Source: Deltaproteobacteria bacterium CG11_big_fil_rev_8_21_14_0_20_42_23 (GTDB lineage: Bacteria; UBA10199; 2-02-FULL-44-16). Taken from it: a DNA stretch of 41,237 bases. The number at the start of each line of letters is the position of its first letter. Within the stretch, counting starts at the first letter, position 1. The stretch lies in contig PCXC01000029.1 in NCBI GenBank assembly GCA_002796345.1, positions 576-41,812 on the forward strand, in the 5' to 3' direction. Of this stretch, positions 14,113-18,817 are shown in pieces. The translations under genes were made by a program, and so were the position numbers. Below the pieces are notes generated by a model. It made no database searches, was not told the DNA's origin, and saw only the letters and a program-made list of their open reading frames with translations.

Positions 14113-14679
14113 CTACCATCGGCGAACAGGGCCGGTATCAACATGCACAAAACGGTTTCGGCCGTAGTAGCCAACGCCACCACTTTGCAGCGAAATGACA
14201 TAATTGCGAAGGGTAAGAGATGGAACTTCGGCAAGCTTGATATCCATTGCCCTTCCCTTCATGTGAAAGCTTTTGGAAGCCACGCGTCTTGAATGCTTGC
14301 GAAGGCGCGCGTTGTACTCTGGGCTGCGATATCCCGAAATAACACTTACCTTGTCTGCCTCGAAATGATCTTGGACGTGATCGATAAGCTCGATCAGCTT
14401 CAAGGAAATGGGAAACTCTTCATCATTATAGTGACATTTGAGCAAAGCATTAATCTCGCGCAAGGCTTCTTGATTGTAAAACCCTTGGATATCCCGATAT
14501 AGCAGTTCTTTTACTTCGCCGGTATTCACAATGTTGAAGGTAATATGGCCATCGCCAGTGTACTTAAATACAGACGTATGTTCTACGCTGGTGGAACCCG
14601 AGCCGTACGGAAAGCAAACAAGAACAAAGAAGAAAAGGCTCGCCAAAAGAATTTGAAATGTTTTATACGTTTTTTTCAT
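14113..14679 (-). CDS. DUF882 / M15-like zinc peptidase, secreted (paralogue A)
   Basis: A 188-residue protein with an N-terminal hydrophobic signal or anchor (about residues 8-26) and a DUF882 (YcbK-like) domain. The zinc-peptidase pattern SFHMKGRAMDI (S-x-H-x-x-G-x-A-x-D) and the later FVHVDTG (H-x-D) are intact, as in D-Ala-D-Ala carboxypeptidases and related murein endopeptidases. A role in trimming peptidoglycan is likely. The chosen ATG lies directly back to back with the ATG of the next gene in the palindrome CATATG. No ribosome site is visible; an upstream TTG (14745) is the alternative. The domain closely resembles that of its neighbour. Confidence 0.82.
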   Translation of the reverse strand: MKKTYKTFQILLASLFFFVLVCFPYGSGSTSVEHTSVFKYTGDGHITFNIVNTGEVKELLYRDIQGFYNQEALREINALLKCHYNDEEFPISLKLIELIDHVQDHFEADKVSVISGYRSPEYNARLRKHSRRVASKSFHMKGRAMDIKLAEVPSLTLRNYVISLQSGGVGYYGRNRFVHVDTGPVRRW

Positions 14680-15606
14680 ATGAATAGTATCGGTTGTTCT
14701 TCGAAAAGGTTGCGCTTCCCTAGTGGACTTTGGGCAAAAAAGCAAGCCTTTGCTAGCTATCTAGCTGGAATTGTGTTGCTTTTTCCACTTTTGCTTTGGG
14801 CAGATTTTCCCCTTCCGCACGACGGGAAGCTAAAGCTTTACAGCTATCACCACGACGAATTTCTTTCGGTTGAATATGAGAAAGAAGGAAAACTTCAAGA
14901 GCAGGCGTTGAAGCAAATTGAAAAAATCTTCCGCTCTCACGAAGACAACACGCAGCATGCCATCGATCCAAATCTCATTCGGCTGCTGGATCATATCCAA
15001 GATCACTTTGCGGCCGATACGGTCGAAATCATTTCGGGCTTTCGTAGCCTTGCCTACAATGCCCAGCTCAAAACAAATGGGCACAACGTAGCTTCGGAAA
15101 GCTATCACACCAAAGGTTTTGCAGCCGATATTCACTTGGATGAAATCAGCGAACGTGATCTGTGGGAATACGTCAAGAGCTTGCACCTTGGTGGCGCTGG
15201 CTATTATCCCCGCTTTGATTTTGTGCACGTTGATGTAGGCCCCAGAAGAATTTGGCAAGAGGCCGACAGCACAACGCGCCAGCTCATTGGAACTGAAAAC
15301 AACAAAAATGTAACCTGGTCAGCCACCACAAATAAAAACATCTATAAACAAAACGATTCGCTAGAACTCACGCTTACGAACCAAGCTTATCACGCACAAA
15401 AGCTAAGTCGAAATATTTGGCTTGAAGGATTTCGCGAAGGCAAATGGCAAACACGCGTTCGTATTTTGAAGTCGCCGGGAAAACGAGTGGCAGCAGGTGC
15501 CAGCAAAGAGCTCACCCTTTCTCTTTCTTCCGCAAAACCTGGAAAATACCGCCTTGTAGTTTTTGCAGATCGCAAGTTCAAAGCGCTCACCTGTTTTATC
15601 GAATGA
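14680..15606 (+). CDS. DUF882 / M15-like zinc peptidase with C-terminal beta domain (paralogue B)
   Basis: A 308-residue secreted protein: hydrophobic segment at about residues 24-42, DUF882 domain from about 70 to 195, then a ~100-residue beta-rich, Ig-like C-terminal domain. The zinc motif SYHTKGFAADI and the second motif FVHVDVG are intact. Shared blocks with the divergent paralogue include DHIQDHF, ISGFRS, YNAQL and GGAGYY. Probable function is peptidoglycan hydrolysis in the periplasm. The frame is open for 45 codons upstream of this ATG, but that stretch is antisense to the paralogue. No Shine-Dalgarno is visible, so the start is uncertain. Confidence 0.82.
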   Translation: MNSIGCSSKRLRFPSGLWAKKQAFASYLAGIVLLFPLLLWADFPLPHDGKLKLYSYHHDEFLSVEYEKEGKLQEQALKQIEKIFRSHEDNTQHAIDPNLIRLLDHIQDHFAADTVEIISGFRSLAYNAQLKTNGHNVASESYHTKGFAADIHLDEISERDLWEYVKSLHLGGAGYYPRFDFVHVDVGPRRIWQEADSTTRQLIGTENNKNVTWSATTNKNIYKQNDSLELTLTNQAYHAQKLSRNIWLEGFREGKWQTRVRILKSPGKRVAAGASKELTLSLSSAKPGKYRLVVFADRKFKALTCFIE

Positions 15607-15696: not shown

Positions 15697-16572
15697 ATGA
15701 AAATGCGTCTTTTTGCTTCTGCACTTCTGTGCACTCTGCTTGTTTCTTGTTCCGGTGATGGTGGTGGCTCAGGAGAGAGTCCCCTTGGCAATCTTGGTGC
15801 TGAACCCACAAAAGAGCTCAGCGATACCACTAAAGACATTGTGGGTGATTTTCTTGACTTCATGTTTGAAGGGGAAGTGTTAGCCGTTCCAGACAGCAGA
15901 CCAGTTGCGTCACCAGTAAGGAGTATGCCTTCAGATTCTTCTTCAAGTGTGAACGACTCCGCCGAAGTGAGCGTTAATAGCAGCGTAAAAAATACCGCCG
16001 TTTCCTCTGATGCCACAGAACAAAAAATTCTTTCTTGGATTGAAACTCTCAGTGAAAACGATGAAGCAAACAGCAGCTCAAAAACCATCACACGAACCGG
16101 AACTGAAAACGGAAGTGGAAGAACAACCTGGACAAATCATGAATCAGAATTTTATCCAGGCACTACCATTGATGGTTTTATTCAAGTAAACAAAAACTCT
16201 TCAAACTACTCCGCAAACGCAGAAGTAAAACGAACGTTTCATGATCTTGCAAGACGGTACTATGGAAAAAGTATTAACTTCAATGGAACGGTGACCAGAA
16301 CTTTAAATGGAACTATCACTCTAATACCTCCACCACCAGAACAAACTGAAGTTATCGCGCTTGATTTCACGGAAAAAGTGAAATCGATGAACATCACCCT
16401 TTCTGGTGATGTAAGTGGAACCCTTAACTCAAACATTCAAGTGCGTGTAAAGGGTTCGTTTGGTGACGTTTCCACTGATCCCTTTTTTGAATGCAGTGGA
16501 AAATTTGTGTACACCAATGGTGACGATGTAGAAGTGTGTAACATAAATTCAAACTGCTTCGGCTGTTTGTAG
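15697..16572 (+). CDS. Secreted lipoprotein of unknown function
   Basis: I do not recognise a known domain. The N-terminus is a lipoprotein signal with lipobox LLVSC (Cys18), followed by a Gly/Ser-rich linker. The remainder (291 residues in all) is rich in Ser, Asn and Thr and looks beta-structured, with alternating patterns such as FNGTVTRTLNGTITL. The C-terminus ends in a cysteine cluster: one Cys in FFECSG and three in CNINSNCFGC. A good ribosome site (AAAGGA) precedes the ATG and a strong terminator follows. It is likely anchored to the outer membrane. Confidence 0.75.
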   Translation: MKMRLFASALLCTLLVSCSGDGGGSGESPLGNLGAEPTKELSDTTKDIVGDFLDFMFEGEVLAVPDSRPVASPVRSMPSDSSSSVNDSAEVSVNSSVKNTAVSSDATEQKILSWIETLSENDEANSSSKTITRTGTENGSGRTTWTNHESEFYPGTTIDGFIQVNKNSSNYSANAEVKRTFHDLARRYYGKSINFNGTVTRTLNGTITLIPPPPEQTEVIALDFTEKVKSMNITLSGDVSGTLNSNIQVRVKGSFGDVSTDPFFECSGKFVYTNGDDVEVCNINSNCFGCL

Positions 16573-16968: not shown

Positions 16969-17227
16969 GTTTCCTCCTCTTGAAAGTGTGCACAAGAGAA
17001 GAGCAAACTCAGTGCCAAAAAATGAAAACGCCAGTAAATGCTTATTTCATCAGCGTTTACGGTGATCGCCTCAAAAGTGTAGCCTTGAGATGCTGATTTA
17101 TCTTCGACGTTTTTATCCATATCAATGCAGAAAATAAAGTTGTCTCACTGCATTATTTTCTTGAATCTCGTAGCAGCTTTGTGAAAGGGTGATCCCACAA
17201 CCATTTCTCATGAAGGATACTCCAACT

Positions 17228-18817
17228 ATGTTAAAACGCATTTTTTCACTTTTGTTTCTTTCCGTTTTTCTGTTCTCGTTTTTTACTGCGTGCAGCAAAA
17301 AGAAGAGTGTTAGCTCATCAGGTTCAGATCAAACTTTTGTTTTTAACAATAGAACTGAACCAGAATATTTAGATCCAGGCTTAGCTGCTGATACGCAGTC
17401 TTCTAATGTTATTGTCAATTTGTTTGAAGGTCTAACGCGCTATCATCCCAAAGATCTTTCTGTTCTGCCTGGTGTGGCGCACTCGTGGAAAATAAGCACT
17501 GATGGAAAAACCTATACATTTTTCCTTCGCCAAGACGCAAAATGGTCTGATGGCTCTGCAGTTACCGCAGAAGATTTTGTATATTCTTGGAGAAGGGTTG
17601 TAAATCCTAGCACGGCTTCAAACTATGCTAGTCTTTTGTATTCAATAAAGAATGCACGGGAGATTAATTCTGGAAAAGAAAAACCGGAAACGCTTGGAGT
17701 GAAAGCCTTAGATCCGTACACCCTCGAAGTGCAGCTTGAAAATCCTACACCTTACTTTTTACACCTCACGCAATTTTATACGTATGCGCCTGTGCAAAAA
17801 AAGACACTCGATGCCTTTGGCGACGATTGGACAAGGCAAGAACACATCGTCAGCAATGGGCCCTTCATCTTAACCGAGTGGATTCCACAAAAGCATATTG
17901 TGATGGAACCAAATCCTCACTATTGGGGAAGAGACGAAGTAAAGCTCAAGAAAATTTACTTCCTTGCCATTGAAGACCTCGAAACTTCACTTAAAAAATA
18001 TTTAGCCGGCGAAATTCATTTCCTAGATGAACTTCCTCCCATCAAACTTGATGCCCTTCGCAATCGCGCGGATTTTGTTGATGGTCCGTGGCTTGGCACT
18101 TACTATATCGAAGTAAATACAACGCGACCCATCCTCAACCAAAAACTTGTCCGACAAGCATTGGCGCACGCCATTGATCGCAAGCAGCTTGTAGCAGTTT
18201 TGAAAAAGGGAATTCCAAGTTCGACTATGACTCCGGAAAATGTAAATAACTATATTCCACCTTCGGGTCATGAGTTTAATATCGAAAAAGCGAAACAACT
18301 TTTGGCTGAAGCTGGCTATCCAGAAGGAAAAGGATTTCCAAAATTTGTTATCAGTTACAACACCCACCAAACACATCAGATTGCAATGGAAGTGGTACAA
18401 AACATGTTGAACAAAAATCTTGGAATAAATGTTGAAGTCCAAAATCTGGAATTCAAAGTGTTGTTAAAGCAGCGTGCAGCTCTTGCCCACGACCTTGCGC
18501 GCGCAGGTTGGATTGGTGATTTTTTAGATCCTTACACTTTCCTCGAACTCTACACCACTACAAGTGGAAATAACCACAGTGGATGGAGTAACAAAGAATA
18601 TGATGATCTCATCCAGCTTTCAAACACCATTTTAGATCCTCAAAAAAGAAATGAAGTGTTGCAAAAAGCTGAGCGCATTCTTTTGGACGAATCTCCTATC
18701 GTTCCTCTTTACACGTACACAGAGCCATCGCTCATCAGTCCAAAAGTGACTGGTATTTATCACAACCTTCAAAATATTGTTCCACTCAGAAATGTTTCGA
18801 TGGGGGAAAACAAATAG
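17228..18817 (+). CDS. oppA: Oligopeptide-binding lipoprotein, ABC transporter
   Basis: The solute-binding component of the Opp importer, family 5. The 529 residues begin with a lipoprotein signal (lipobox FFTAC, Cys22), then the family pattern with EPEYLDPGLAAD, VAHSWKISTDGKTYTF and WSDGSAVTAEDFVYSW. It captures peptides in the periplasm and delivers them to OppBC. I chose the ATG at 17228, with AAGGA 10 nt upstream; the ATG at 17210 and further codons upstream would put charged residues before the signal. It is followed by a cluster of hairpins before oppB, which probably makes oppA mRNA more abundant than the rest. Confidence 0.93.
   Translation: MLKRIFSLLFLSVFLFSFFTACSKKKSVSSSGSDQTFVFNNRTEPEYLDPGLAADTQSSNVIVNLFEGLTRYHPKDLSVLPGVAHSWKISTDGKTYTFFLRQDAKWSDGSAVTAEDFVYSWRRVVNPSTASNYASLLYSIKNAREINSGKEKPETLGVKALDPYTLEVQLENPTPYFLHLTQFYTYAPVQKKTLDAFGDDWTRQEHIVSNGPFILTEWIPQKHIVMEPNPHYWGRDEVKLKKIYFLAIEDLETSLKKYLAGEIHFLDELPPIKLDALRNRADFVDGPWLGTYYIEVNTTRPILNQKLVRQALAHAIDRKQLVAVLKKGIPSSTMTPENVNNYIPPSGHEFNIEKAKQLLAEAGYPEGKGFPKFVISYNTHQTHQIAMEVVQNMLNKNLGINVEVQNLEFKVLLKQRAALAHDLARAGWIGDFLDPYTFLELYTTTSGNNHSGWSNKEYDDLIQLSNTILDPQKRNEVLQKAERILLDESPIVPLYTYTEPSLISPKVTGIYHNLQNIVPLRNVSMGENK

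Follow-up and report, generated by a model that had tools for sequence, protein, structure and literature searches.

The window analysed here, a stretch of 41,237 nucleotides, harbours two divergent open reading frames that abut at the hexanucleotide CATATG: a minus-strand frame running from 14679 to 14113 (188 aa) and a plus-strand frame running from 14680 to 15606 (308 aa), the latter being open from 14545. A Shine-Dalgarno-like stretch is absent before ATG 14679 as well as before ATG 14680; ribosome sites are visible at the neighbouring superoxide dismutase gene and at the gene beginning at 15697. Both predicted products exceed the cut-off of 27 bits for PF05951 (DUF882 / M15_2), the short protein with 137.8 and the long protein with 121.5 bits, bearing out the first-pass annotation of two DUF882 frames that diverge at CATATG. 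The features discussed below are collected in Table 1.

Table 1. Features of the divergent peptidase locus, in window coordinates
Feature	Position	Strand	Basis or remark
Predicted short murein peptidase of 188 aa (DUF882/M15_2) with N-terminal signal peptide	14113..14679	-	ATG start 14679; PF05951, ortholog alignment
CATATG	14677..14682	.	Start codon of the minus-strand gene plus a probably chance plus-strand ATG
Candidate -10 box AACCGATAC	14687..14695	-	Pattern match G000:C29:15263-15286; score 27.7, p<=0.0003
Candidate -35 box GCAACCTTTT	14704..14713	-	Plus-strand reading is AAAAGG, a ribosome-site lookalike next to TTG 14710
Long DUF882/M15_2 peptidase, 298 aa, signal peptide, C-terminal Ig-like domain (Big_14) (predicted)	14710..15606	+	Preferred start TTG 14710; PF05951 scanned from 14680

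The zinc ligands H-x6-D...H are kept in both proteins (H139/D146/H179 in the short one; H143/D150/H183 in the long one, numbered from 14680), and the H, D and H are invariant across the eight aligned short proteins. Both window proteins are predicted to be exported, zinc-dependent murein peptidases of the DUF882 (M15_2) type; as enzymes, the two make an unremarkable pair. A PDB search with the short-gene profile returned no solved relative, and for the long protein the only matches were two Argonaute entries (E 0.007), which look like chance and were discarded. The C-terminal Ig-like domain that had been attributed to one paralogue is a marginal Big_14 match in the window long protein (27.3 bits against a cut-off of 27) and falls under the cut-off in two of three long partners from relatives (23.9 and 21.1 bits); in other long proteins of the class the C-terminal extension matches no named domain. 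While the domain itself stands as a marginal match, its recent gain is doubtful: the extension is common to the long clade and appears to be a feature of that old clade, not a fresh acquisition by one paralogue.

Matches to the short protein were found in 44 of the 60 genomes searched (its own genome included), and its own genome contains a third, more distant DUF882 gene. A first genome-contig scan with the long protein confirmed no relative. Three genomes of the window's own order (G005, G006 and G008) keep the divergent pair, which is absent around the short gene in G001, G002, G003 and G007. A tree of 35 proteins joins the plus-strand window gene to the long partners from these three genomes (support 97/89) and the minus-strand gene to the short genes of its own family (support 95/88), so the divergent pair predates the split of the two families. 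An SBP_bac_5 oligopeptide-binding gene lies at 17189-18817, about 1.6 kb downstream of the plus-strand gene; in G001 and G003 a similar-looking gene stands directly upstream of the short peptidase, a difference in position from which we conclude that the surroundings of the pair were rearranged.

Comparison of the locus with its relatives upholds the pair but not its junction. In the three genomes that keep the pair, the two genes are 63-70 bp apart with ribosome-site-like stretches at their starts, and CATATG occurs in none of them (0/3; gaps and junctions both counted by hand). Nor is the hexanucleotide rare in the window, which has nine copies where 5.28 are expected; shuffling gave nine or more in 6 of 100 trials. 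CATATG as a designed bidirectional start, with the shared six bases as its core, was therefore rejected, and chance is the likeliest reason why the two starts abut.

The minus-strand start at ATG 14679 agrees with the orthologues in an alignment of the short proteins and appears sound. For the plus strand, ATG 14680 is probably not the true start; TTG 14710 fits better, because the pairs in relatives have the wider gaps just described, without CATATG. The mature domain begins with a conserved GDG/HDG motif, which by hand count lies 37 residues from TTG 14710 and 47 from ATG 14680; in the three long partners of relatives the corresponding distances are 26, 30 and 34. A start at TTG 14710 leaves an intergenic gap of 30 bp, almost wholly occupied by the candidate promoter of the minus-strand gene. 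The weak point of this start is the AAAAGG that directly touches it, which is too close to serve as a ribosome site and coincides with the -35 box of the minus-strand gene. A more distal start at ATG 14545, preceded by GAAGG at four bases, is unlikely, since the resulting N-terminus would include a long basic segment that resembles nothing in the relatives. The earlier remark that neither start has a ribosome site accordingly holds for the two ATGs, although ATG 14680 as the start of the plus-strand gene is not confirmed; with TTG 14710 in its place, the proposal that each promoter lies inside the coding region of the other gene is borne out for neither.

Two words recur upstream of the short genes, GCAACTTTT and, after a fixed gap, GCCGATAA. 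In the window they form part of a candidate promoter of the minus-strand gene, GCAACCTTTT-N8-AACCGATAC (14713-14687), which ends 7 nt before ATG 14679. The extended sigma-28 consensus is TNAAG-N14-GCCGATA as given in PMC3333780. The window architecture, GCAAC-N14-ACCGATA, has the same spacing and nearly the same -10 box, with A for the first G; among the sites of our matrix, G is the commonest letter at this position (11/21). The -35 box TNAAG is not matched; at this place the window, like the majority of the 21 matrix sites, has GCAAC, a variant -35 box. These sites were taken from the window's own genome with the pattern itself, the window site being left out.

Scored with this matrix, 10 of 14 short-type orthologues of the class reach at least 12.4 upstream, the 14 leaving out the short-looking matches G035:C25, G006:C2, G025:C3, G005:C29 and G008:C88. 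The other four have no convincing motif (G003, G007 and G042, plus G034, which has a -10 box only). From a scan of named genomes, five of 79 loci score at least 10. Four of the five belong to class genomes included in the count above; other records make up at least 74 of the 79 loci, and among them a single one scores at least 10. The missing ribosome site of the minus-strand gene likely has its reason here, in a putative sigma-28 (FliA)-type promoter and a leaderless mRNA.

The motif is not confined to the short peptidase genes. The pattern AACNTTT-N9..14-CCGATA occurs 27 times in the window's own genome against twice for a reversed control, with exactly N11 in 22 of the 27. Across 46 genomes of the class it was counted 1106 times versus 141 for the reversed control, and across 14 genomes outside the class 48 times versus 44. 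Within the class some genomes, for example G009, G012 and G041, show few matches or no excess over the control. At 22 of 63 sites from three genomes (9/27, 5/16 and 8/20; the reading covered every one of the 16 G001 sites and 20 of 41 in G003), an ATG-initiated frame of at least 60 aa begins 5-12 nt after CCGATA, compared with 3.3% of random positions. The ATG of the window minus-strand gene, 8 nt after CCGATA, is among these 22. After such a -10 box, sigma-28 transcription is expected to start about where the ATG stands, so transcript and reading frame would begin together. This leaderless arrangement is not universal, because in the pairs of G005, G006 and G008 the motif lies 15-18 nt before the ATG, with a ribosome-site-like stretch. 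Either the window gene and its closest relatives would have lost a leader, or the family of these three genomes would have gained one. Elsewhere in the data, loci L033 and L041 (G000:C20, C51) have near-identical gene starts, each 7 nt after the motif, and represent a duplicated regulon gene.

The proteins encoded downstream of the motif mostly lack a Pfam domain (20 scanned, 19 of them regulon candidates), the exceptions being subtilase, histidine-kinase-like ATPase, FGE-sulfatase-like, TSP_3 and DUF4912 proteins. Sec-exported and lipoprotein-like products are included among the candidates, namely the subtilase, the TSP_3 protein and lipoproteins. Over the first 25 residues, charged residues make up 14.0% in the regulon versus 24.8% in controls (p 1.2e-6; 55 proteins from three genomes versus 80). 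The control N-termini were read from the first possible start codon, so their charge may be overestimated, and the regulon set comprises proteins of at least 100 aa. In G001 the difference is smaller (20.9%). Regulon N-termini are also richer in S and P than the controls. Low charge and more S and P are known for the N-termini of type III secretion signals. Three regulon proteins (L034, L039 and L050) begin with the same pattern, M-(F/I/L)-S-A-G-(D/E), which may be a shared signal. Roughly 10 kb from sctV, L135:14358-16697 (G000:C7) encodes a 779-aa protein with a PF02518 histidine-kinase-type ATPase domain and an unusual N-terminus; its start follows the motif by 7 nt.

A FliA-like sigma factor of about 300 residues, scoring 117.8-147.9 bits against a FliA/WhiG cut-off of 189.6, is encoded in 39 of the 46 class genomes (hand count), and a full FliA in only four (G011, G025, G029 and G045). 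An FHIPEP protein of the SctV/FlhA type is present in 44 of the 46. In G011, G025 and G029 the full FliA lies within 6 kb of a second, higher-scoring FHIPEP, which suggests flagella beside an injectisome in these genomes. The FliA-like sigma adjoins type III genes in all seven relatives whose stretches were read; in its neighbourhoods NCBIfam names SctN in G001 (over the cut-off) and SctJ in G013 (best match, under the cut-off), the remaining type III genes being judged by like N-termini. Sigma and FHIPEP lie within 20 kb on one contig in 11 of 39 genomes (hand count). G024 has six motif matches against one in the control and is without a FliA-like sigma. The window's own genome encodes SctV (TIGR01399, 791 bits, over the NCBIfam cut-off). 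In its assembly, 99.99% complete by markers, no FliA-like sigma, SctN or SctJ was found, and the sigma factors found were only RpoD and RpoH-like. Because SctV and 27 motif copies are present, we think that the sigma/SctN/SctJ cluster is missing from the assembly; it may have been lost. In the type III stretches read, the motif occurs only at L135 and L136, and neither copy precedes an apparatus gene, an absence that would fit late genes. The likely reader of the motif is the FliA-like sigma encoded inside the type III secretion clusters.

The long gene appears to be controlled otherwise. Sigma-70-like sites are absent from both strands of 14400-14900, and a sigma-70 promoter for the plus-strand gene within this interval was discarded. 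The sigma-28-type motif was found neither before the window long gene nor before the three long partners (those of L009 and L011 being scored with starts off by a few bases). Since the partners in relatives lack the motif, the short and long genes probably answer to different sigma factors. The first-pass annotation had expected coupled or interfering expression. The two sets of signals do touch, the -35 box of the minus-strand gene covering TTG 14710, but separate regulation fits better than simple coupling, with interference as a possibility.

From the computed pair and its conservation, and from the computed motif, its enrichment and its position, we infer which sigma factor reads the motif, a leaderless transcript, a peptidase function for the products and a tie to secretion, and we hold the reading that joins them with moderate confidence. 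We postulate an ancient divergent arrangement of two genes for exported DUF882 (M15_2) zinc peptidases that act on murein. A sigma-28 (FliA)-type promoter within the short intergenic gap would drive the short gene. RNA polymerase with a FliA-like sigma would initiate on ATG 14679 or no more than one or two bases from it, yielding a leaderless mRNA and hence no visible ribosome site. Promoters of the same type would head tens of genes per genome in much of the class, often in the leaderless arrangement, and would be read by the FliA-like sigma from the type III (injectisome) cluster. The short peptidase would be a Sec-exported member of this type III-linked regulon that opens cell-wall peptide cross-links, and the long gene would stand outside it, probably starting at TTG 14710 and having another promoter.

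A different account accepts the sigma-28-type promoter and detaches the regulon from type III secretion, assigning it for example to an envelope or life-cycle programme, with the place of the sigma in the cluster being historical. We regard this as possible, if doubtful. The Sec-exported and lipoprotein-like products would suit it, as would the motif preceding no apparatus gene in the stretches read; the embedding of the sigma in the cluster in the seven relatives read, and the many candidate proteins with charge-poor, S/P-rich N-termini, argue for the type III link instead. It seems improbable that the motif is the operator of a class-wide transcription factor, with ordinary promoters elsewhere. 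In favour of an operator are the length and bipartite build of the motif and its occurrence in G024, where no FliA-like sigma was recognised; against it, the -10 box and N14 spacing follow the sigma-28 consensus, its position relative to the ATGs is that of a core promoter, and FliA-like sigmas occur in 39 of the 46 class genomes.

We give similarly little credence to the original model, in which CATATG provides the start codons of both genes, the promoter of each is located in the 5' coding region of the other, and the arrangement couples expression or causes interference. The junction is absent in 3/3 relative pairs with their gaps of 63-70 bp, and no sigma-70-like site lies in 14400-14900; frames do open from both abutting ATGs, neither with a ribosome site, and a plus-strand start at 14680 would indeed put the minus-strand promoter inside plus-strand codons 3-12. 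The N-terminus from 14680, however, is 10 residues longer than that from TTG 14710 and so further from the lengths in relatives.

The motif is readable by eye and not enriched in the 14 outside genomes; as such it marks candidate secreted and envelope genes in a class known here from metagenome assemblies alone. If the FliA-like sigma reads it, injectisome-linked proteins, mostly of no known domain, could be listed directly from the motif, and their genes would lend themselves to the study of leaderless translation in a bacterium where ribosome sites are otherwise visible. More speculatively, and only tentatively, this uncultured class of small-genome bacteria may have a FliA-derived sigma dedicated to a non-flagellar type III system, with a large regulon of mostly unknown proteins, many of them leaderless. 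The short DUF882 peptidase would then be the enzyme with which this regulon opens the cell wall, doing for the injectisome what other wall hydrolases do for flagella and further secretion systems.

A literature search outside subscription papers found no report combining UBA10199 and type III secretion and, among the papers listed, none that links a FliA-like sigma to an injectisome in bacteria of this kind or describes an injectisome M15 peptidase. Among known enzymes, E. coli/Klebsiella YcbK, which we take to be MepK, is a DUF882/M15 murein endopeptidase of the same Pfam kind as the window proteins. Unlike YcbK, the window peptidases form a divergent pair, the long one has an extra C-terminal Ig-like domain, and their function is predicted. 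The zinc ligands of Klebsiella KPN_00953 are His169/Asp176/His209 according to PMC3927764, and the His-7-Asp-33-His spacing of the window proteins is identical to it. FliA (sigma-28) promoters have the -10 box CCGATA and the N14 spacing in common with the window motif, whereas their -35 box is TNAAG and that of the window and class is GCAAC(T/C)TTT. The FliA-like sigma of the class differs from FliA in scoring below the FliA/WhiG cut-off and in sitting in an injectisome cluster. Chlamydiae, too, combine a non-flagellar type III system with a sigma-28 family factor, which serves their sigma-28 late genes. The chlamydial sigma-28 targets include the protease gene tsp, according to PMC3333780. 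Few sigma-28 targets are known in Chlamydia, whereas in the class described here the motif heads tens of genes per genome, often with leaderless geometry.
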